A DNA stretch of 64,000 nt from Methylocapsa acidiphila B2 (lineage in GTDB: Bacteria; Pseudomonadota; Alphaproteobacteria; Rhizobiales; Beijerinckiaceae): the NCBI RefSeq assembly GCF_000427445.1, contig NZ_KE386496.1, positions 2,619,504-2,683,503 on the forward strand, read 5' to 3'. The notes under the pieces were generated by a model. The model did no database searches, was not told the origin of the DNA, and was given only the letters and a program-made list of their open reading frames with translations. Of this stretch, positions 45,340 through 56,152 are shown piece after piece. Positions within the stretch are counted from its first letter, which is position 1. Every line of letters starts with the position of its first letter. The translations under genes were made by a program, and so were the position numbers.

Positions 45340-45932
45340 TGATCATCTCCATTTGCGCTTTATGACCCGCGCTTTGTCAGGCATTACTCAGGCGCTACAT
45401 GGAAGATGTGATCACAAGTTGGCGATATACATAGGCTATAGGTACGAGATCCTAGTCTCAGTCTATGCTTTAGAGGCTCTGTATTGAATTCGTCATTTCA
45501 GTGTAATCTTGGCCCGCCGGGGCCTCGTCACAGCTTCGAACCTAATCAGCGCGACGGCTCGAGTCCGCAGTAACCGCAGCTTGCGATATGAACAGACGAG
45601 CGGAACGCGGCTGCGGACCGGGCATGCGGAGGATTTCCGCGCCAGTCGGCGTTGTTGCAAGGATGAAGACGCGCGGGATTCGGCTCGATTGGCGCCGACC
45701 GGACCGCGCTCGACAATGAAGGAAAGCACACCGCGATCTCGCGCGCGGAGACAGCGGCCTCGCCAGATTTATGTCTGCGTCATTCGATCAGATCATGGTC
45801 TAATCGACGCTGCGATCTCAGCGCAGATGTGGCTTGGCAAAAATTTGGTCGACCGAATGAGACATTCGGTCGACCAACTCGATCAGGCTCTAGTGGATAA
45901 ACCTGGGCGTAGAATTTTCGACGCGAGGATCT
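45340..45932. other. Spacer downstream of the nif cluster
   Basis: This 593-base spacer lies between the last nif-cluster gene and the RlpA-like gene. Apart from the terminator hairpin at 45840-45877 it holds no recognisable gene. The stretch at 45340-45490 is AT-richer and may carry the rlpA-like promoter. Confidence 0.5.
45840..45877 (-). terminator. Strong hairpin-T terminator of the nif cluster
   Basis: TTGGTCGACCGAATG (45845-45859) and CATTCGGTCGACCAA (45863-45877) form a perfect 15-bp stem with a 3-base loop. Read on the minus strand, the stem is followed by ATTTTTG, so it is a good intrinsic terminator 56 bases after the last gene's stop. Its core is shared with the 120-bp repeat at 21954-22073. 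Confidence 0.8.
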
Positions 45933-46523
45933 TCAGACCGGCCGATTTTCGTTCGGATTGCGAACTGGACCCATCCGCTTCAAGCCTTCCTCGTAGCTGA
46001 TAACCTCCCAGTCGGCGTCGAACTCAAGCGCCTTCTCGGTGATATAATCCATCTTGCCGGCCGTATTGAGCTTCTTGATGTCGTTCTTATCGATGAAGAG
46101 CAATTCCAGGAATTCATTATAGGCGGTCGCTTCGCCGATCGGGAGGCAGTAGAAGGTCACGTCCCCCATCGGGATGCGATATTTGCACAAAAGATCCTGA
46201 TTGTTCGAATAGATGAAATATTTCCCGCCGGGCTTGAAGAACTCGCCGAGGACTTCCATCGTCAGCTGCAGATATTCGAACGAAAGGAGATAGCACATGA
46301 AGACTTCAAAAGAAGACGAGCCCTCCTTCGTCGTCACGAAGGCCTGCCAAATCGACAGTTCCGGAGGCCGCTTTTCATCGGCCATGCTGGTCTGAAACTT
46401 CAACGCGATCTCGCCGCGGAACCCGAACCGGCCGGGGCTGATTTCTTCCTTGATGATCGGATGCGTCAGACGTCCCTCGGTTTCAAGGCGCGCGAAGACT
46501 GTGTTCTCTATTTTGAGCGTCAT
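45933..46523 (-). CDS. Nif-cluster protein of unknown function
   Basis: The 196-residue soluble protein (MTLKIENTVFARLETEGRL.., ending NPNENRPV) has alternating strands and helices and no membrane segment. Its three Cys (MCYLLS, LLCKYR, FYCLPI) are scattered, so no cluster motif is seen. ATG 46523 has ACGGGAA nearby; ATG 46541 is also possible. It overlaps the end of the globin gene by about 41 bases and closes the nif run before a terminator. It is therefore very likely co-expressed with nitrogen fixation genes. I recognise no family. Confidence 0.72.
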   Translation of the reverse strand: MTLKIENTVFARLETEGRLTHPIIKEEISPGRFGFRGEIALKFQTSMADEKRPPELSIWQAFVTTKEGSSSFEVFMCYLLSFEYLQLTMEVLGEFFKPGGKYFIYSNNQDLLCKYRIPMGDVTFYCLPIGEATAYNEFLELLFIDKNDIKKLNTAGKMDYITEKALEFDADWEVISYEEGLKRMGPVRNPNENRPV

Positions 46524-46926
46524 GAGGGTTCCCGTCGTCATTGCGGACCCAGTCCGCCAATTTGTAAAAAGATTGGAGCAATTGCTCCCGTAATGCGGGA
46601 TCCGCGACAACCTCGTCAAGGGCGCCGCTCATGCAGAGCATCCAGGCGTCGCGCTCCGCCGGACCGATCCGAAACTGCATATGCCGCATCCGCAGGCGTG
46701 GATGTCCACGCTCTTGCGAATAGGCTTTCGGACCGCCGAGCCACTCGCCCAAATAGCGCTTGAGGATTTCGCCAACGGGCGCCAAGTCTTTCGCGTGCAT
46801 GGCGCGAATTAATTTGGCTTCCGGCAAGGAATCCATGCGGCGATAGAACGAATCGACGAGGGCGTCGATTGACGCCTGACCACCGATGCGCGCGAATGGC
46901 GTTGAGGGCTCTTGAGAAGACGTCAC
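46483..46926 (-). CDS. Group II truncated hemoglobin
   Basis: The 147-residue globin has FARIGGQASIDALVDSFYRRM (essentially B helix with the B9-B10 Phe-Tyr pair), the EF region YLGEWLGGPKAYSQ, the proximal His in RMRHMQF and a Trp in DAWMLCM (G8). These are marks of trHb2/GlbO. Such globins bind oxygen or NO tightly. Being inside the nif run suggests oxygen or NO management for nitrogenase. The start codon is GTG 46926. It ends inside the start of the next gene. Confidence 0.87.
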   Translation of the reverse strand: MTSSQEPSTPFARIGGQASIDALVDSFYRRMDSLPEAKLIRAMHAKDLAPVGEILKRYLGEWLGGPKAYSQERGHPRLRMRHMQFRIGPAERDAWMLCMSGALDEVVADPALREQLLQSFYKLADWVRNDDGNPHDAQNREHSLRAP

Positions 46927-46990
46927 TGCCGCGAGTCGTCTTGCAAGAGGCTCCGAGACTTTCGTCCCGGAACCTCAAGATCTGTTCTAC

Positions 46991-47848
46991 TCATGCGAGC
47001 GCGGCTTCCTTTTGCGAGGCCATCGTCGCCACGAAATCCGCGAGCGGCATGTCGATTCGCTCGACATTATATCGCTCGAGGAATTTTACTTCGTTCTTGG
47101 TCGGCGTCTCGGGCAAGACCGCCCAGTGCTTTTCGGAAGAGCGCTTCATGATTTGCCAAGCGAAGATTCGCTCCAGCTGGGTCATGAAGCGGCAACCGAG
47201 AAACAGGAAGCTCCGGTCGGAGCGCAGAGACTGAACCTTTTCCGGAATCGGCGTTTGAATGTCGATCTCGGTGAGCACTTCCACGAAGTCCGAGTCGGAG
47301 ACGAGGAAATTGCCTTCCGGGGCGACTGAGCCCCAGGGCTGGTAAAGGACGGTCGCCCACCCTTCGGCCGCGGCTAATTCCGCCTCCTTGTCGATCTTCG
47401 CTCCGGTCTTGTCGAAATACCGAACCCAGGTCGCGAGATGCTCGGCTTGGCTCACGCCCTGAATAAAGCCCCAGTTCTCACGGACCGCCAGCGCCTGTTG
47501 CGGCAGGTCGTCGTACCAAGAATGGACGACGAGCGGCAGCTTGGGCCAAGAGGCGATCCAATTATGGAGCGTCGTCGGCTCGACATGAGGCTTGAACGCC
47601 TCCGTCATCACCGCGCTGATGGTCTTGCGATGCTTGAAATTCTCAATGAACTGCGCCGCCGCCGAAAGATTCTTGCGGATCTTATGCGGCACGGAGGCTT
47701 TGGCAGTGAGCTTCGCCACCAACGGGTCCGGCCCGACGGGAAGCGGGCAATCCGCGCCGGCCAGCGCCAAGACGCCCGGGCCCAAGTACGGGACAAGGAG
47801 GCCGGCGTCCAGAGCCGCATGAATCTGTTCGAGCGTTTGCGTGGTCAT
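46991..47848 (-). CDS. SIR2-like domain protein of the nif cluster
   Basis: The 285-residue protein looks like the SIR2_2 family: an N-terminal VPYLGPGVLALAG in place of the NAD-binding GAGxS loop (about 19-31), a middle VVHSWYDDLPQQAL (about 107-120), and a C-terminal SFLFLGCRFMTQLERIFAW (about 226-244). The usual T-x-N-[YF]-D is H-S-W111-Y-D, so the catalytic Asn is missing. It starts at ATG 47848, sharing bases with the stop of the preceding small gene (TAATG). Similar SIR2-like proteins have been seen in nif clusters, but the function is unknown. Confidence 0.75.
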   Translation of the reverse strand: MTTQTLEQIHAALDAGLLVPYLGPGVLALAGADCPLPVGPDPLVAKLTAKASVPHKIRKNLSAAAQFIENFKHRKTISAVMTEAFKPHVEPTTLHNWIASWPKLPLVVHSWYDDLPQQALAVRENWGFIQGVSQAEHLATWVRYFDKTGAKIDKEAELAAAEGWATVLYQPWGSVAPEGNFLVSDSDFVEVLTEIDIQTPIPEKVQSLRSDRSFLFLGCRFMTQLERIFAWQIMKRSSEKHWAVLPETPTKNEVKFLERYNVERIDMPLADFVATMASQKEAALA

Positions 47849-48072
47849 TAGAATGCCTCGAGCTTGACGCCTTCCAAGGTCTTCAGCTTGGCGAGCTCGT
47901 CGAACGTCGTGTAGAACGCCGCCCGTCCGCCGGACAGCGCATGAATGGCGAGATGATTGGACAGATGGTTGTGCCAGTCCTGGGCTGAAATGCCTTCCGG
48001 CGCCTCGCCGCAGAAAATGCATTCGCCCTTCGGATTGTAGCGGACCTGAATGATGACTTCACCGGTGGCCAT
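47848..48072 (-). CDS. Small CxxC protein of the nif cluster
   Basis: The 74-residue product (MATGEVIIQVRYNPKGECIFCGEAPEG..) has one CxxC (CIFC, residues 18-21) and His-rich text DWHNHLSNHLAIHAL (about 32-46), which could form a zinc or iron site. AGAGGAG precedes ATG. It lies 45 bases after the 2Fe-2S ferredoxin stop and its stop overlaps the SIR2-like start. I do not know a named family. Confidence 0.75.
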   Translation of the reverse strand: MATGEVIIQVRYNPKGECIFCGEAPEGISAQDWHNHLSNHLAIHALSGGRAAFYTTFDELAKLKTLEGVKLEAF

Positions 48073-48117
48073 TGCGAAACTCCTCTCTGGTGATGGGCAG
48101 TGCGTCGATTGACGGAA

Positions 48118-48423
48118 TCAACCGGAAAGCGCGCCGAGCAATTCAACTGTTACATTTTCCGTGCCGTTGAGCACGCATTGGCAGGCAAGGCGCGATTTTG
48201 ATCCGACGCCGACCATCGCGTCGAGGCGCTCGCTCTCCGGCGCCACCAACTTTTTCAAGCCCTTTTTGCCCTCGAGAACAAAAAGATGGCACGGATCATA
48301 TTTATTCTTGCTCTCGCAGGTGCATTCGATCGGGATTCCGGCAGCTTGAAGAGCGGCCAGAATTGTCGTGCCCTCAGCCGCCTCTTGTGTCTTTCCTGAA
48401 GGCTTAATCGTGATGGTGGGCAT
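48118..48423 (-). CDS. 2Fe-2S ferredoxin of the nif cluster
   Basis: The 101-residue protein has a ubiquitin-like ferredoxin fold (TITIKPSGKTQEAAEGTTIL) with four or more candidate cluster cysteines in IECTCESKNKYDPCHLF (about 32-48) and LACQCVL (about 84-90). The spacing differs from the plant-type C-x4-C-x2-C and resembles ferredoxins found in nif regions. It probably moves electrons for cofactor assembly or nitrogenase. AGAGGAT precedes ATG 48423. Confidence 0.85.
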   Translation of the reverse strand: MPTITIKPSGKTQEAAEGTTILAALQAAGIPIECTCESKNKYDPCHLFVLEGKKGLKKLVAPESERLDAMVGVGSKSRLACQCVLNGTENVTVELLGALSG

Positions 48424-48479
48424 TTAAAATCGATCCTCTGTTGGTTGGATTGAACTCATGCGAGCGCTTGAAGCGATCG

Positions 48480-49631
48480 CTATAGGGTGATTTCCGCGCC
48501 GGCGCCGATATTGATCGATGCGTCCTTCATCGAGCCGACGATGAACGCGATCTGATCCTCGGTGAGATGGGCGTGGAACGGGAGCACGACGGCGCGATCG
48601 GCGACTTTTTCGGTCACGAGAAAGTCCGTCTTGCGATAGCCGAGCTCGAAGTAAAGAGGCTGAAGATGCAACGGCATGGAATAAGCCGCCGCCTCGACTT
48701 CCTCTTTCTTCAGATCGTCAATGATCGCGTCGCGGCTCGAGCGCGAAAACCGCGTGCCGAGATGTACGGTATAGAGGAACCAATGCGCCTCGGTCACGTC
48801 GGGGGCGATGAACGGGTCCTTGATCCCTTCGAATGATTTGACATAGTCGTAGTACCAATATTCAGCGCGCTTTCGCTTTGCCAGGATCAGCTCGAGGCGC
48901 TGAAGCTGCGCCAACCCGAGCGCCGCCGATATATTGCTCATGCCGCCATTATAGGCCGGCGCGCCGCCGACGACGACGGAAGCGCGCTCCTCCAGCCGAT
49001 GCGACCGGTAGCGGCGTAGCGCCATTGCGACGTCGATGTCGTCGGTGACGACCATCCCGCCCTGGCCGCAGACGAGCGGTCCTGGTTGGGAAAAATCAAA
49101 GATCGAACAATCGCCGAAGGTTCCGACCAATGCGTCTTTGTAAGTGGAGCCGATCGCCTCACTCGAATCTTCGATCAAAATCAGCTTGTGGCGCTGAGCG
49201 ATCTCGCGAAATTCCGTCCACTGCGCGGGATGGCCGTTCACATTGCTGACAAGGATCGCCCGCGTCTTCTCCGATATTTTTCTTTCCGCCTTTTCGGGAA
49301 CGAGCGTGCCCGCCCAATAATCGATGTCAGCGAAGATCGGAAAGGCGCCGCGAATGGCGATCGCATGCGCGATTTCCCGAAACGAGTGCGGCGACGCAAT
49401 GACTTCGGCGCCCGGACCGATTCCATAGGCGTCAAGCGTCAGCATCAGTCCCATAGTCCCGCTCGACACCGAGACTGCGAATTTACGTCCGAGATAGGTT
49501 GCGAAGGCTTCCTCGAAGGCCTCAACCGCTTCGCCAGAACTGACATGTGCGGACTGAAGCACCTCCATCACGGCGTCGAGCTCCGCCTGCGACATATCGG
49601 GATCGCAAAGCGGGATCATGTTGACGCTCAT
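48480..49631 (-). CDS. DegT/DnrJ/EryC1/StrS-like protein lacking the PLP lysine
   Basis: The 383-residue protein follows the DegT sugar aminotransferase fold: SSGTMGLMLTLDA (about 56-68), the PLP-pyridine Asp in LIEDSSEAIGSTY (about 152-164), SNISAALGLAQL and a C-terminal Leu-rich end. At the Schiff-base position the sequence reads FDFSQPGPLVCGQGG (178-192), so the expected Lys is Gly184. It is also not the His found in ColD-like dehydratases. It may bind PLP or another ligand without transamination. The start overlaps the upstream gene by ATGA. Confidence 0.85.
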   Translation of the reverse strand: MSVNMIPLCDPDMSQAELDAVMEVLQSAHVSSGEAVEAFEEAFATYLGRKFAVSVSSGTMGLMLTLDAYGIGPGAEVIASPHSFREIAHAIAIRGAFPIFADIDYWAGTLVPEKAERKISEKTRAILVSNVNGHPAQWTEFREIAQRHKLILIEDSSEAIGSTYKDALVGTFGDCSIFDFSQPGPLVCGQGGMVVTDDIDVAMALRRYRSHRLEERASVVVGGAPAYNGGMSNISAALGLAQLQRLELILAKRKRAEYWYYDYVKSFEGIKDPFIAPDVTEAHWFLYTVHLGTRFSRSSRDAIIDDLKKEEVEAAAYSMPLHLQPLYFELGYRKTDFLVTEKVADRAVVLPFHAHLTEDQIAFIVGSMKDASINIGAGAEITL

Positions 49632-49915: not shown

Positions 49916-50125
49916 TCAATCATTCAGCTTGCGGGCTTCGACCGTACAAGGGATTTCCAGCCCCTCTGCGGCCGGCGGCAATTCGAGCTGCCAGCCATTG
50001 GCGAGGGTCACGATGCCGCCCCACATTTCCGGCTTCTCCATGGAGACGACCGGCTCTTCCAGATCCTTTTTCGGCACATAGACCGAAAGAACGCCGGCGC
50101 CGTCCTTACGAAGCATGATCTTCAT
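49916..50125 (-). CDS. nifT: NifT/FixU family protein
   Basis: The 69-residue protein starts MKIMLRKDGAGVLSVYVPKKDLEE and has WGGIVTLANGWQLELP, the NifT/FixU pattern. Its role in nitrogen fixation is unclear, and mutants often have little phenotype. GAGG precedes ATG. It lies 40 bases after nifS. Confidence 0.92.
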   Translation of the reverse strand: MKIMLRKDGAGVLSVYVPKKDLEEPVVSMEKPEMWGGIVTLANGWQLELPPAAEGLEIPCTVEARKLND

Positions 50126-50165: not shown

Positions 50166-51302
50166 TCACGCGGCAATCGCCGCCGCTTCGTTGACGATCC
50201 CGGGCAGAACATCGAGGACCGCGTCGATCTCAGCCGCGGTCGTTTCACGGCCAAGCGAAAAACGGATGGACGATAAAGCGCCCCGTGCGTCAAGCCCCAT
50301 GGCGAGAAGCACATGCGAAGGCTCCGTTCCAGACGAGGTGCAAGCAGCTCCTGCAGAGGCGCAAATCCCCGCTCGATCGAGCCGCTCAAGGATCAGCTCG
50401 GCCTCGAGATCGCCGAAGCGAATGTTTGTTGTATTTGCGACGCGTTCGGCGCCCTGGCCATTGATCGACGCAAACGGCAGGCGCTCCAGAACGCCCGCCT
50501 CAAGCTTGTCGCGCAGGCCGGCCAGATGGGCGTTTTTCGCCCCCATCTCTTTTTGCGCCAGCGCCGCCGCCGCGCCGAGGCCGATAATCCCGGGGACATT
50601 CTCGGTGCCGCCGCGACGGGCGCGCTCCTGATGGCCAAAGATCTGGGCCGGGAGCTTGACGCCCTTCCGCATGAATAAGGCCCCTATCCCGGTCGGCGCG
50701 TGAAGTTTGTGACCGGTCAAGGACAATAAGTCGATCTGTGACGTCTTGAGATTGATCTCGATTTTGCCGACCGCCTGAACCGCGTCGGTATGGAAGAGCA
50801 CGCCCCGCTCGCGGGCTAGGCGCGCGATGGCCTCGATCGGAAAAATGACGCCTGTTTCATTATTCGCCCACATCACGGACACGAGCGCGGTGTCAGGCGC
50901 AAGACTGGCTGCGACTTTCTCCGGGTCCGGGTGTCCGACGGCGTCGACAGGGACGTAGGTGACGCGCGCGCCCTTGGATTCGAGATGGGCGAGCAGCTCC
51001 AGACACGAAGGATGCTCGACGGCCGTCGTGACGATATGCTGCTTGGCGGGATCGAGGGCCAAGGCGCCCAAAATGGCCAGATGGTTGGCCTCCGTGCCGC
51101 AGCTCGTGAAGACGAGCTCGGGCGGCGCGCAACCGAGCAACTTGGCGAGATCGCCCCGCGCCGCCATGACCGCGCTCTTGCTGCATTCGCCGGCCTGATG
51201 CTTGCTCGACGGATTTGTTGGACCGCCACGCATGCAGGCGGCCATGGCCTCGATGGCTTCGGGCGCGACCGCGGTCGTCGCATTATTGTCGAGATAAATC
51301 AT
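50166..51302 (-). CDS. nifS: Cysteine desulfurase NifS
   Basis: The 378-residue PLP enzyme frees sulfur from cysteine for nitrogenase Fe-S clusters. It shows MIYLDNNATTAVAPE, HxxxC-type TAVEHPSC (about 100), the PLP lysine in SLTGHKLHAPTG (about 201) and the catalytic-loop Cys in ASAGAACTSSGTEPSHVL (about 325). ATG 51302 gives the canonical start. A near-consensus sigma-54 site lies 72 bases upstream, so it may start its own transcript. Confidence 0.95.
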   Translation of the reverse strand: MIYLDNNATTAVAPEAIEAMAACMRGGPTNPSSKHQAGECSKSAVMAARGDLAKLLGCAPPELVFTSCGTEANHLAILGALALDPAKQHIVTTAVEHPSCLELLAHLESKGARVTYVPVDAVGHPDPEKVAASLAPDTALVSVMWANNETGVIFPIEAIARLARERGVLFHTDAVQAVGKIEINLKTSQIDLLSLTGHKLHAPTGIGALFMRKGVKLPAQIFGHQERARRGGTENVPGIIGLGAAAALAQKEMGAKNAHLAGLRDKLEAGVLERLPFASINGQGAERVANTTNIRFGDLEAELILERLDRAGICASAGAACTSSGTEPSHVLLAMGLDARGALSSIRFSLGRETTAAEIDAVLDVLPGIVNEAAAIAA

Positions 51303-51768
51303 TTTGGCACAATCCACCCAAACGCCAGGCGAGCCCGCGTCGGCCCGATCAGGATCTCCGTTTTCCGACAGTAGCAAGACTCGTGCACGCTGGCCCGCGT
51401 GAGTCCCCGGCCGAGAGCCCAAGCCTTGAATTTCTTCTGTTTTCCCTACGCCCCTGTTTCGCGACGGCGATCAAACGCAATAAGGCGTCAGCCTAATCCC
51501 TCGCCCGCCTTGGAGACGCCAATTCATGCGAAACGACTTGCGGAGTCGCCATCGACGAAAAGTCGAGACGATTTCGGCCGATCAGACCGAGAGGATCTGA
51601 AAAAAGAGGCGACGCGCGAGATGTCCCGATCGCGCAAGATTTGACGTGGGCCAAATCCGCCGATGCGCGCCCGGCATGTGATCGGGCGAAGCATGCCTAA
51701 TTCTTAAGCGCCAAAATCGACCAAGAGCCGGATGTCGCAGCGGACAGACGGGCGGCTCGCAACGCGCC
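51303..51768. other. Spacer between nifZ and nifS
   Basis: This 466-base spacer is the longest break inside the nifB-to-end run and holds the possible sigma-54 site listed next. No NifA box in the TGT-N10-ACA form was found near it. No gene or RNA was recognised. Confidence 0.5.
51374..51388 (-). promoter_or_regulatory. Possible imperfect sigma-54 promoter for nifS
   Basis: Read on the minus strand this is GTGCACGAGTCTTGC. It fits TGGCACG-N4-TTGC except for the first two bases, so only one of the two -24 guanines is present. It lies 72 bases before the nifS ATG. The imperfect -24 element makes this tentative. Confidence 0.35.
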
Positions 51769-54426: not shown

Positions 54427-56016
54427 TTACTCCGCGGCGACCGCCGCGACGTCGACGGCGACTTCGCCGGGCCGGATCTCCGCGTCGCCCTTTTCGACGT
54501 GGATGATCGAGCCGTCCTTCACGCCTTCGAGATAGCGCTTGAAGTAGGTGATCGCCGACTTCTCGATGAATTCATGGGCGAATTCATCGACCGCCTCAAT
54601 GCCGGCCGCCAAGAGATCCTTCTTGGGGCAGCCGCCGATCTTGGCGACGAACACCGCATGGCAGTCCTTGATGGCGCGAATGACCGTCTCGAGCGCGTCT
54701 TCCTCGCCATAGCCGCCTTGGCAATAGAGATCGACGCGGCGATGGCCGATGAAGTGAGCGCCCTTGCCGGTGCTCAGCTCATAGATCTGGAACTCGGCGG
54801 CATGGCCGAAATGCTCGTTGATGCGGCCCGAGCCCTTGGTCGCGACGGCGATCAGGATCTTGATGTCGCTTTCGACGCCCGCGAGGATCTGTAGCTCGTT
54901 GGCCTTGGCGCCAGAGACCGCCAGACGCTCTTCCTCGACCCGGGCCTGATAGGCCTGGCGCGTGGCGAGATCGTAATTGACGTCCATCTCCATGATCTTT
55001 TCAGTGGTGAACTCGGCGCTGCGGTCTTCGCCGAGAAGACCGACGGCGTCGGCGCGGCACTGGCGGCAATGCCGCATCATGTTCATCTCGCCTTCGCAGC
55101 TGTCCTGCAGGCGCTTCAGCTCTTGCGCCGTCGGGCCGCGCTGTCCGGTCAAGCCGAACACCGTGCCATGCTCGGCGGCGGAGATGAGCGGCATGATGTT
55201 GTGCAGGAAGGCTCCGCGCGACTTGACGGCCTTGTTCACCTCGACGAGATGCTGGTCGTTGACGCCGGGGATCATGACGGAATTGATTTTCGAGAGAATT
55301 CCGCGCGCGGTGAGCATCTCAAGACCCTGCATCTGACGATCGGTCAGGATCTGCGCGGCCTCTTTGCCCGTATAGCGCTTATGCTTGTAGAAGATCCAAG
55401 GATAGATCTTCGCGCCGACCTCGGCGTCCACCATATTCACCGTGATCGTGACATGATCGACGTTATAGCGCGCGATCGTGTCGACATGATCGGGAAGCGT
55501 CAGTCCGTTGGTCGACAGGCAGAGCTTGATGTCGGGAGCGGTCTTGGCGATGAGGTCGAAGGTCTTGAAGGTCTTCTCAGGATTGGCGAGCGGATCGCCC
55601 GGGCCGGCGATGCCGAGAACGGTCATCTGCGGAATGGTGGAGGCGACGGCGAGCACTTTCTTCGCGGCCTGCTCCGGCGTCAAACGCTCGCTGACGACGC
55701 CGGGACGCGATTCATTCGCGCAATCATATTTGCGGTTGCAGTAATTGCATTGAATGTTGCAAGCCGGCGCGACCGCGACATGCATGCGGGCGTAATGATG
55801 ATGCGCCTCTTCGCTGTAGCACGGATGATTCTTGACTTTTTCCCAGATTTCGGGAGCAAGGTCGTTCTGGCCGGCCTCGGTGCCGCAGCTCGCCTTTTTG
55901 CCGCCGTCGCTGTTGGTCTCGCAGCCTTTGTGCTCGGCCATCTTCTTCATGATTTCGTCGGCCGATGCGCCCGCCTTGACAGCCGCTTCAGCGACCTCGC
56001 GTTCTGACAATTCCAT
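54427..56016 (-). CDS. nifB: FeMo-cofactor biosynthesis protein NifB
   Basis: The 529-residue radical SAM enzyme fuses two [4Fe-4S] units and inserts carbide to give NifB-co. The radical SAM cysteines are Cys86, Cys90 and Cys93 (ACNIQCNYC). It has [29 protein letters not shown] for the accessory clusters, and a C-terminal NifX-like domain (about 400 to the end, [18 protein letters not shown]). ATG 56016 was chosen with GAGGA before it. A sigma-54 promoter lies about 120 bases upstream. Confidence 0.96.
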
Positions 56017-56137
56017 TGTTCGATCCTCGCTTTTGGCTTGGAACCTATTGGTACTAAAGGGGCGCGCCACGCCTCCCCCCGTCCGCCGATAAGCTCTACT
56101 GCGATCCCGCTCGGCAAGACCGCCTGGCCCTTGGGGA

Positions 56138-56152
56138 GCAACTAGCGTGCCA
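56138..56152 (-). promoter_or_regulatory. Sigma-54 (-24/-12) promoter of nifB
   Basis: On the minus strand the sequence is TGGCACGCTAGTTGC, a perfect match to TGGCACG-N4-TTGC. It lies 122 bases before the nifB ATG. Confidence 0.9.

Follow-up and report, generated by a model that had tools for sequence, protein, structure and literature searches.

A conserved gene tail behind nifT in Methylocapsa acidiphila B2 encodes two putative pseudoenzymes and is distinct from the globin gene that follows it

The nifB, fdxN, nifZ and nifS-like genes act in Fe-S and cofactor cluster assembly, and the list of genes on which nitrogenase depends, or from which it benefits, is not yet complete, a matter of consequence for moving nitrogen fixation to new hosts. 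In Mesorhizobium loti, excerpts of the published work describe a gene run, nifB-...-fixU-msi351, behind a NifA-type promoter (PMC3538637), and partial accounts of Rhodobacter capsulatus report a SIR2 protein, Rcc03262, that was detected in the wild type but not in a nifA double mutant (PMC6925177); the excerpts mention no further gene of the tail described below. A table in the portion considered here of a Bradyrhizobium ORS278 study lists a 2Fe-2S protein (BRADO5410) and a DegT protein (BRADO5411) under nitrogen fixation, together with NifZ, LRV and TPR proteins (PMC3899966). Sections of a paper on Azoarcus BH72 describe a NifA-dependent ferredoxin-like gene, fer22 (azo3368), beside nifZ; nifT, an aminotransferase or a hemoglobin is not mentioned there, nor do the sections seen of a paper on the alphaproteobacterial NifA regulon mention a sirtuin, an aminotransferase or nifT. 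Here we analyse a 64,000-nucleotide stretch of the M. acidiphila B2 genome (the window), in which six open reading frames (ORFs) run on the minus strand from position 49631 down to 45933, encoding a DegT-fold protein, a [2Fe-2S]-type ferredoxin (Fer2), a 74-residue protein (the small protein), a SIR2-fold protein, a truncated globin and a 196-residue protein of unknown function (UNK). A description of their common core as a unit, or of lost active sites in it, was not found in searches of an open-access library.

Comparison of related loci shows that DegT, Fer2, the small protein and SIR2 form a conserved tail to nifT, and that globin and UNK are separate genes. Among the best 80 of at least 561 SIR2 loci from GTDB genomes, a set that leans toward close relatives, nifT is present in 76, DUF6129 in 67, DegT in 61, Fer2 in 48, the small protein in 43, and globin and UNK in 11 each; in the four loci lacking nifT, the contig stops short of its place. 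The tail, in the order nifT-DUF6129-DegT-Fer2-small-SIR2, is shared by loci of Alpha-, Beta- and Gammaproteobacteria, and shorter forms (such as nifT-SIR2) also exist, for example in metagenome-assembled genomes of Acidobacteria. DUF6129, DegT, Fer2, the small protein and SIR2 stand on one strand in 33 of the 65 complete loci (those that include nifT and extend 1.5 kb or more beyond SIR2), and two of these 33, both close relatives of the window, add globin and UNK. The initial annotation had drawn six genes on one strand, with overlaps or short gaps, as a single module directly behind nifT: its coordinates and most of its labels were right, and DegT-like, 2Fe-2S, SIR2-like and globin all score above Pfam cut-offs. 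A 91-residue DUF6129 gene nonetheless separates nifT from DegT, overlapping the latter by 4 nt, and the notion of six genes as one module is ruled out, the full set having been seen in two of 65 complete loci and not beyond one clade. Relatives of SIR2 also occur on 75 plasmid records from seven genera, with Rhizobium, Sinorhizobium and Mesorhizobium accounting for 69; in all five plasmid records opened for the SIR2 gene, it lies 1-5 genes beyond nifT.

The linkage to nitrogen fixation extends to 299 genomes sampled from the phylum, nifT being present in 39. SIR2 was found in 16 genomes, 15 with nifT (12 strong matches, all with nifT, and four remote ones of 75-93 bits, three with nifT), UNK in nine, including three remote relatives, and the small protein in four, every UNK and small-protein genome having nifT. 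Hypergeometric P values against the 39 nifT genomes, with kinship not corrected for, are 5e-14 for SIR2, 5e-9 for UNK and 3e-4 for the small protein, so that the nif association proposed initially goes beyond chance. Scans of 40 genomes (the 39 with nifT plus G068) returned a nif-type DegT (at least 45% identity and 357 bits; next best match 169 bits) in six and a close Fer2 (at least 56% identity to a stop-to-stop frame, longer than the Fer2 gene) in four; globin was scanned in 20 of the 40 (19 of the 39), including every one of the four in which the small protein occurs. Of the 39, the genome of the window is alone in having close relatives of all six. Co-occurrence, whose absence had been named as grounds for refutation, fails for the full set of six and holds for the DegT/Fer2/small/SIR2 core with nifT: the tail is bound to nif, yet is found in a minority of nifT genomes. 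G068 is the sole sampled genome with a SIR2 relative (remote, 75 bits) but no NifT match; its globin shows 48% identity.

In the window, the block makes up the 3' end of a nifB run whose genes share one strand, and the run has a sigma-54 site ahead of it and a terminator behind (Table 1). The minus-strand order is nifB-fdxN-iscA-like-TPR-4Fe4S-LRR-nifZ-nifZ-nifS-like-nifT-DUF6129-DegT-Fer2-74-residue-SIR2_2-globin-UNK, the names upstream of the nifS-like gene following the annotated order in related loci. The promoter-like site, TGGCAC-N5-TTGC, lies 67 nt ahead of the nifB ORF, within which the true start probably sits some codons inside, and occurs once in 64 kb against 0.03 expected from shuffles. 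A -24/-12 site in this position is what a NifA/sigma-54 nif operon carries, and together with the R. capsulatus SIR2 protein data it makes NifA-type control of the run plausible; those data, as far as the excerpted report goes, also agree, for SIR2, with induction under nitrogen limitation. Within the tail, spacing ranges from -41 to +64 nt: DegT and Fer2 are separated by 56 nt and Fer2 and the small gene by 45 nt, the small gene overlaps SIR2 by 1 nt, SIR2 and globin lie 64 nt apart, and globin overlaps UNK by 41 nt. The strong terminator placed initially at the end of the block is borne out by a 15-pair stem with a T run, the sole long stem on this strand, hairpins inside the run having 5-7 pairs; a scan up to base 55000 gave 17 terminator-like sites on both strands against 10.6 expected. 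The longest gap in the run, 466 nt, precedes the nifS-like gene, given a start assumed at MIYLDNNATT in an ORF that opens at 51422. Where the window has this gap (51303-51768, downstream of the second nifZ), Methylococcus and Paraburkholderia carry a small gene, DUF3024 or hypothetical, and the interval in the window may mark the loss of a gene or hold an internal promoter.

We tentatively interpret the tail, giving this view somewhat less than even weight, as a non-essential accessory helper of nitrogenase Fe-S and cofactor maturation, working through non-catalytic scaffolds and Fer2 and bearing a clade-specific add-on related to O2 or nitric oxide (NO). The DegT-fold and SIR2-fold proteins would act as scaffolds, or as regulators with a bound ligand, for the NifB/NifZ/NifS-like/NifT machinery encoded upstream, and Fer2 would supply or relay electrons; in the window's clade, globin, UNK and rewired cysteines may add O2/NO tolerance or redox control. 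Linkage, the promoter site, the residue losses and selection are seen in the data; a complex, ligands and a phenotype are parts that we infer.

The residue losses concern two proteins of unrelated folds, and in both cases the initial annotation's report of missing canonical active-site residues held up and extends to relatives. A PDB profile search with the SIR2-fold protein placed 7uxt ('USG protein', E 7e-7) first and ThsA (6lhx and 8bto, E 5e-6) second and third. For residue alignments we removed the window copies (L001 and L087) and identical sequences, required at least 200 residues for SIR2 and 250 for DegT, and from one sequence set also removed two sequences containing X. At the alignment positions that we take to be the catalytic Asn and His of a ThsA-type NADase, the Asn is replaced by Trp in all 111 SIR2 sequences, so that its loss is common to every one seen, while the His is kept in 13 and missing from the other 98, the window's included; the 13 form one side of a well-supported branch and include Rhizobium, Sinorhizobium and Bradyrhizobium rows. 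Judged from its sequence, the SIR2-type protein is a predicted pseudoenzyme, its NADase residue lost in every member examined, and sensing of nucleotides by a SIR2 fold of this kind, devoid of catalysis, is possible.

Globin and UNK are each nif-linked genes in their own right that frequently form a pair, and a single clade of Beijerinckiaceae is the only one in which they are attached to the tail. They stand side by side in seven of the 80 SIR2 loci: in two, of the window's clade, they follow the tail, and in the other five (L050, L057, L064, L065 and L078) the pair lies on the opposite strand, 2-6 kb off. UNK occurs alone in four loci (one with the contig cut there), as does globin. Elsewhere, both genes lie beside nifH on Paraburkholderia pBN1, UNK is divergent from nifH in P. 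phymatum, Methylococcus has response regulator-globin-UNK divergent from nifHDK, and two Bradyrhizobium plasmids have UNK by iscA-nifU-nifS-nifT with no globin annotated. The P. phymatum nif cluster Bphy_7728-7755, which the part of the literature drawn on here describes as up in nodules, should include the UNK gene; Bphy_7752, a tag guessed from gene order for that gene, was not found in the P. phymatum main texts searched. In Methylococcus EFPC2, a BolA-family gene (L002:15755-16024) follows SIR2 where the window has globin. The globin fits the bacterial truncated globin profile, and 14 aligned globins conserve one Tyr, one Trp and one His that would fit the B10 Tyr, G8 Trp and F8 His of group II, the group to which its relatives in L003 and L100 are annotated.

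A different reading, put forward in the initial annotation, makes the block mainly a unit for O2/NO protection and nucleotide sensing, in which globin would scavenge O2 or NO and the SIR2-like protein would bind nicotinamide adenine dinucleotide (NAD) or ADP-ribose as a sensor. The overlap of globin with UNK, their adjacency near nifH in Methylococcus and Paraburkholderia too, and the kinship of the SIR2 domain with NAD-handling ThsA are what such a unit might display. The O2/NO part, however, derives from globin and nothing else, a gene that just 11 of 80 SIR2 loci contain and that adjoins the tail in one clade only; the Trp in place of the catalytic Asn could equally block the nucleotide pocket. 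We therefore regard this reading as unlikely.

Neither UNK nor the 74-residue protein of the window matched Pfam or NCBIfam at E 1 or better, as expected of two proteins that had been described as lacking a known family; Pfam scans of 22 UNK and 35 small-protein sequences gave just scattered matches at E 0.04 or worse, and PDB sequence searches reached best E values of 0.071 and 0.55, respectively. An AlphaFold2 model of UNK (mean confidence, pLDDT, 89.3) found in the PDB a best Foldseek E of 0.13 and a best VIA Z of 3.8 over 120 residues at a root-mean-square deviation of 5.0, unrelated proteins appearing at similar Z. The model of the small protein (pLDDT 83.5) has a beta-beta-alpha-beta-beta-alpha order, and Foldseek returned nothing from the PDB at E 0.001 or better. 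The same genome holds an UNK paralogue of 35% identity (L104:7765-8442, within C2:1237000-1253000) without the conserved NENRPV end.

In the window's clade, the tail has been rewired. The window Fer2 matches the PF00111 profile but departs from the four-Cys pattern (Cx5Cx2C plus a distal Cys): the second Cys of Cx5Cx2C is replaced and an additional upstream Cys creates a CxC. Fer2 and the small protein both lie near SIR2 in 55 loci, of which 46 keep Cx5Cx2C and have no CxxC in the small protein; the nine with CxxC (the window, L007, L008 and L106-L111) all belong to the window's clade, and their small protein has gained a His as well. CxxC, taken initially as the defining trait of the 74-residue protein, occurs in three of 45 aligned sequences, again from this clade, and we have dropped 'CxxC protein' as a family name. 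Four states go together, namely CxxC in the small protein, Fer2 without the second canonical Cys, Fer2 with CxC, and globin and UNK on the same strand right after SIR2: 46 loci have none, eight have all, one (L110, its contig cut within Fer2) has those that are visible, and mixed loci number zero, L107 and L008 having identical SIR2. As the nine form one clade (support 100/99), one origin suffices, rather than repeated co-evolution, and the association among the states is no more than suggestive. SIR2 is present in 26 of 149 genomes of the family; other members of the window's genus (G431, G333 and G366) carry the canonical form in a different part of the SIR2 tree, which hints at transfer or old paralogy. 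We consider it improbable that the clade's tail is a rewired redox device in which Fer2 and the small protein would share or pass a metal cluster, its state set by O2 or NO at the globin, on a scaffold of two dead enzymes guiding cofactor maturation.

The M. acidiphila genome holds two further copies of the small-protein family. One, without CxxC (L102:7625-7951, within C2:1581000-1597000), lies about 2.6 kb past a nifK-like gene (Oxidored_nitro and DUF3364); two luciferase-like frames occupy the interval, and the copy is followed directly by a CxxCxxCC-domain gene and, at a greater distance, by a TOBE-domain ABC transporter. The other (L103:7689-8072, within C2:1657000-1673000) has PhyH and Usp genes nearby, in a Pfam scan of two neighbours.

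The DegT-type protein matches the DegT/DnrJ/EryC1/StrS family profile over its full length. At the position aligned to the pyridoxal phosphate (PLP) lysine of perosamine synthetase (3bn1) it has Gly; among 61 DegT sequences (a count distinct from the 61 DegT-bearing loci) this residue is Ser in 32, Gly in 25 and another in four, and Lys in none. Lacking the Schiff-base lysine of PLP aminotransferases, the protein would be a second pseudoenzyme, the residue for PLP-aldimine chemistry lost in every sequence examined. It might instead still be an enzyme, a lysine-less protein of pyridoxamine phosphate or PLP fed electrons by the neighbouring ferredoxin, like the E1/E3 deoxysugar dehydrase pair. 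Fer2 directly follows DegT in many loci, 58 of 61 sequences retain a Cys four residues past the position of the missing Lys, and a Glu-Asp pair, which we take to mark the place holding the PLP ring in this fold, is kept in all 61; ColD and an E1-type 3-dehydrase, which presumably carry His in place of the Lys, are among its PDB relatives. The replacement here, however, is not His, 57 of 61 sequences having Ser or Gly; DegT stands without a same-strand Fer2 in 14 of 65 complete loci, and the two plasmid stretches carrying this DegT have no nucleotide-sugar gene annotated, so we think an active enzyme very doubtful. On a Bradyrhizobium nodule plasmid (L005:14960-16300), DegT matches are spread over two frames in which no gene is annotated, and DegT seems broken there; nifT and SIR2 are intact.

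Against two relatives, the ratio of nonsynonymous to synonymous substitution (dN/dS) is 0.05-0.27 for tail genes and 0.05-0.14 for nifT, nifZ and nifB, with one value saturated; the values are rough, with synonymous sites near saturation, and come from stop-to-stop frames, some reaching into an overlapping neighbour. This range suggests purifying selection on the proteins of the tail. A neutral history, in which linkage to the nifB operon would carry the tail genes along as passengers, is accordingly hard to credit, even though tail composition differs between lineages and an M. loti msi351 mutant was fully effective, for the low dN/dS, the many invariant positions across 79 SIR2 sequences and the SIR2 relatives on plasmids of seven genera (spread, we suppose, by transfer) all speak otherwise.

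Several observations weigh against the accessory-helper interpretation. SIR2 is missing from 24 of the 39 nifT genomes and nif-type DegT from 33, so that the tail is not general to nitrogenase. The shorter terminator-like hairpins fall within the nifB run, and the 466-nt gap, if the assumed start is right, leaves space for an additional promoter; TGT-N10-ACA upstream sites for NifA, five in 20 kb, are about what we estimate for chance and were rejected as evidence. Within 14 kb of the UNK gene in Cupriavidus no nif gene is annotated, and nod genes are found. The M. loti result cited above, from an msi351::lacZ insertion scored in nodules, means that, in the excerpts of that report, the sirtuin-like protein is dispensable in that host (PMC3538637).

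Table 1. Features of the nifB gene run and its tail in the window.
Feature	Position	Strand	Basis
sigma-54 (-24/-12) promoter-like site TGGCACGCTAGTTGC	56138..56152	-	upstream of nifB; sole exact match in window
nifB, first gene of presumed operon	54427..56070	-	ORF; NifB query; NifB annotated at same place in related loci
nifS-like cysteine desulfurase	50166..51302	-	TIGR03402 490.8 bits, under cut-off 530.75
nifT	49916..50125	-	TIGR02934 104.1 bits; PF06988
DUF6129 protein, 91 residues	49628..49903	-	PF19624 24.7 bits vs cut-off 23.6
Putative DegT/DnrJ-fold pseudo-aminotransferase, 383 residues	48480..49631	-	PF01041 298.9 bits, residues 12-368, above cut-off
[2Fe-2S]-type ferredoxin, variant Cys set, 101 residues	48118..48423	-	PF00111 29.7 bits vs cut-off 21
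74-residue family of unknown function	47848..48072	-	CxxC only in window's clade
Putative SIR2-fold pseudo-NADase, 285 residues	46991..47848	-	PF13289 (SIR2_2) 67.7 bits vs cut-off 24.5; ThsA alignment
Truncated globin (GTG start), 147 residues	46483..46926	-	PF01152 120.7 bits, above cut-off
UNK, nif-linked protein of unknown function, 196 residues	45933..46523	-	all 9 UNK genomes (of 299) have nifT
Terminator-like intrinsic hairpin, 15 pairs and T run	45845..45877	-	just 3' of UNK

A tail with two putative pseudoenzymes of unrelated folds, and a nif-linked family of 196 residues, offer concrete, deletable candidates among the genes that may serve nitrogenase. Their current annotation names (aminotransferase, SIR2 family protein) are misleading and should not be taken as activities.

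Among described systems, the M. loti run nifB-fdxN-nifZ-fixU-msi351 has, in the excerpts of its description, the same layout, with a 'prokaryotic sirtuin-like' gene directly after nifT/fixU, a likeness of arrangement. Rhizobium and Sinorhizobium stretches of that layout, unlike the window, have no recognised DUF6129, DegT, Fer2, small protein, globin or UNK. Rcc03262 (SIR2) and Rcc03263 (NifT) of R. capsulatus have adjacent gene numbers, as in the tail, and BRADO5410 and BRADO5411 of ORS278 are neighbouring ferredoxin and DegT genes, again as in the tail, named in a table that, in the portion considered, assigns them no function; these resemblances lie in gene number and table entry. ThsA, the SIR2 NADase of Thoeris, has a related domain (E 5e-6) but is 476 residues long as opposed to 285 and keeps the Asn that is Trp here, and perosamine synthetase and other DegT aminotransferases (3bn1 and 3dr4) match the DegT-type protein over the whole length of the fold (E 8e-56), with the PLP lysine lost in the nif-linked form.

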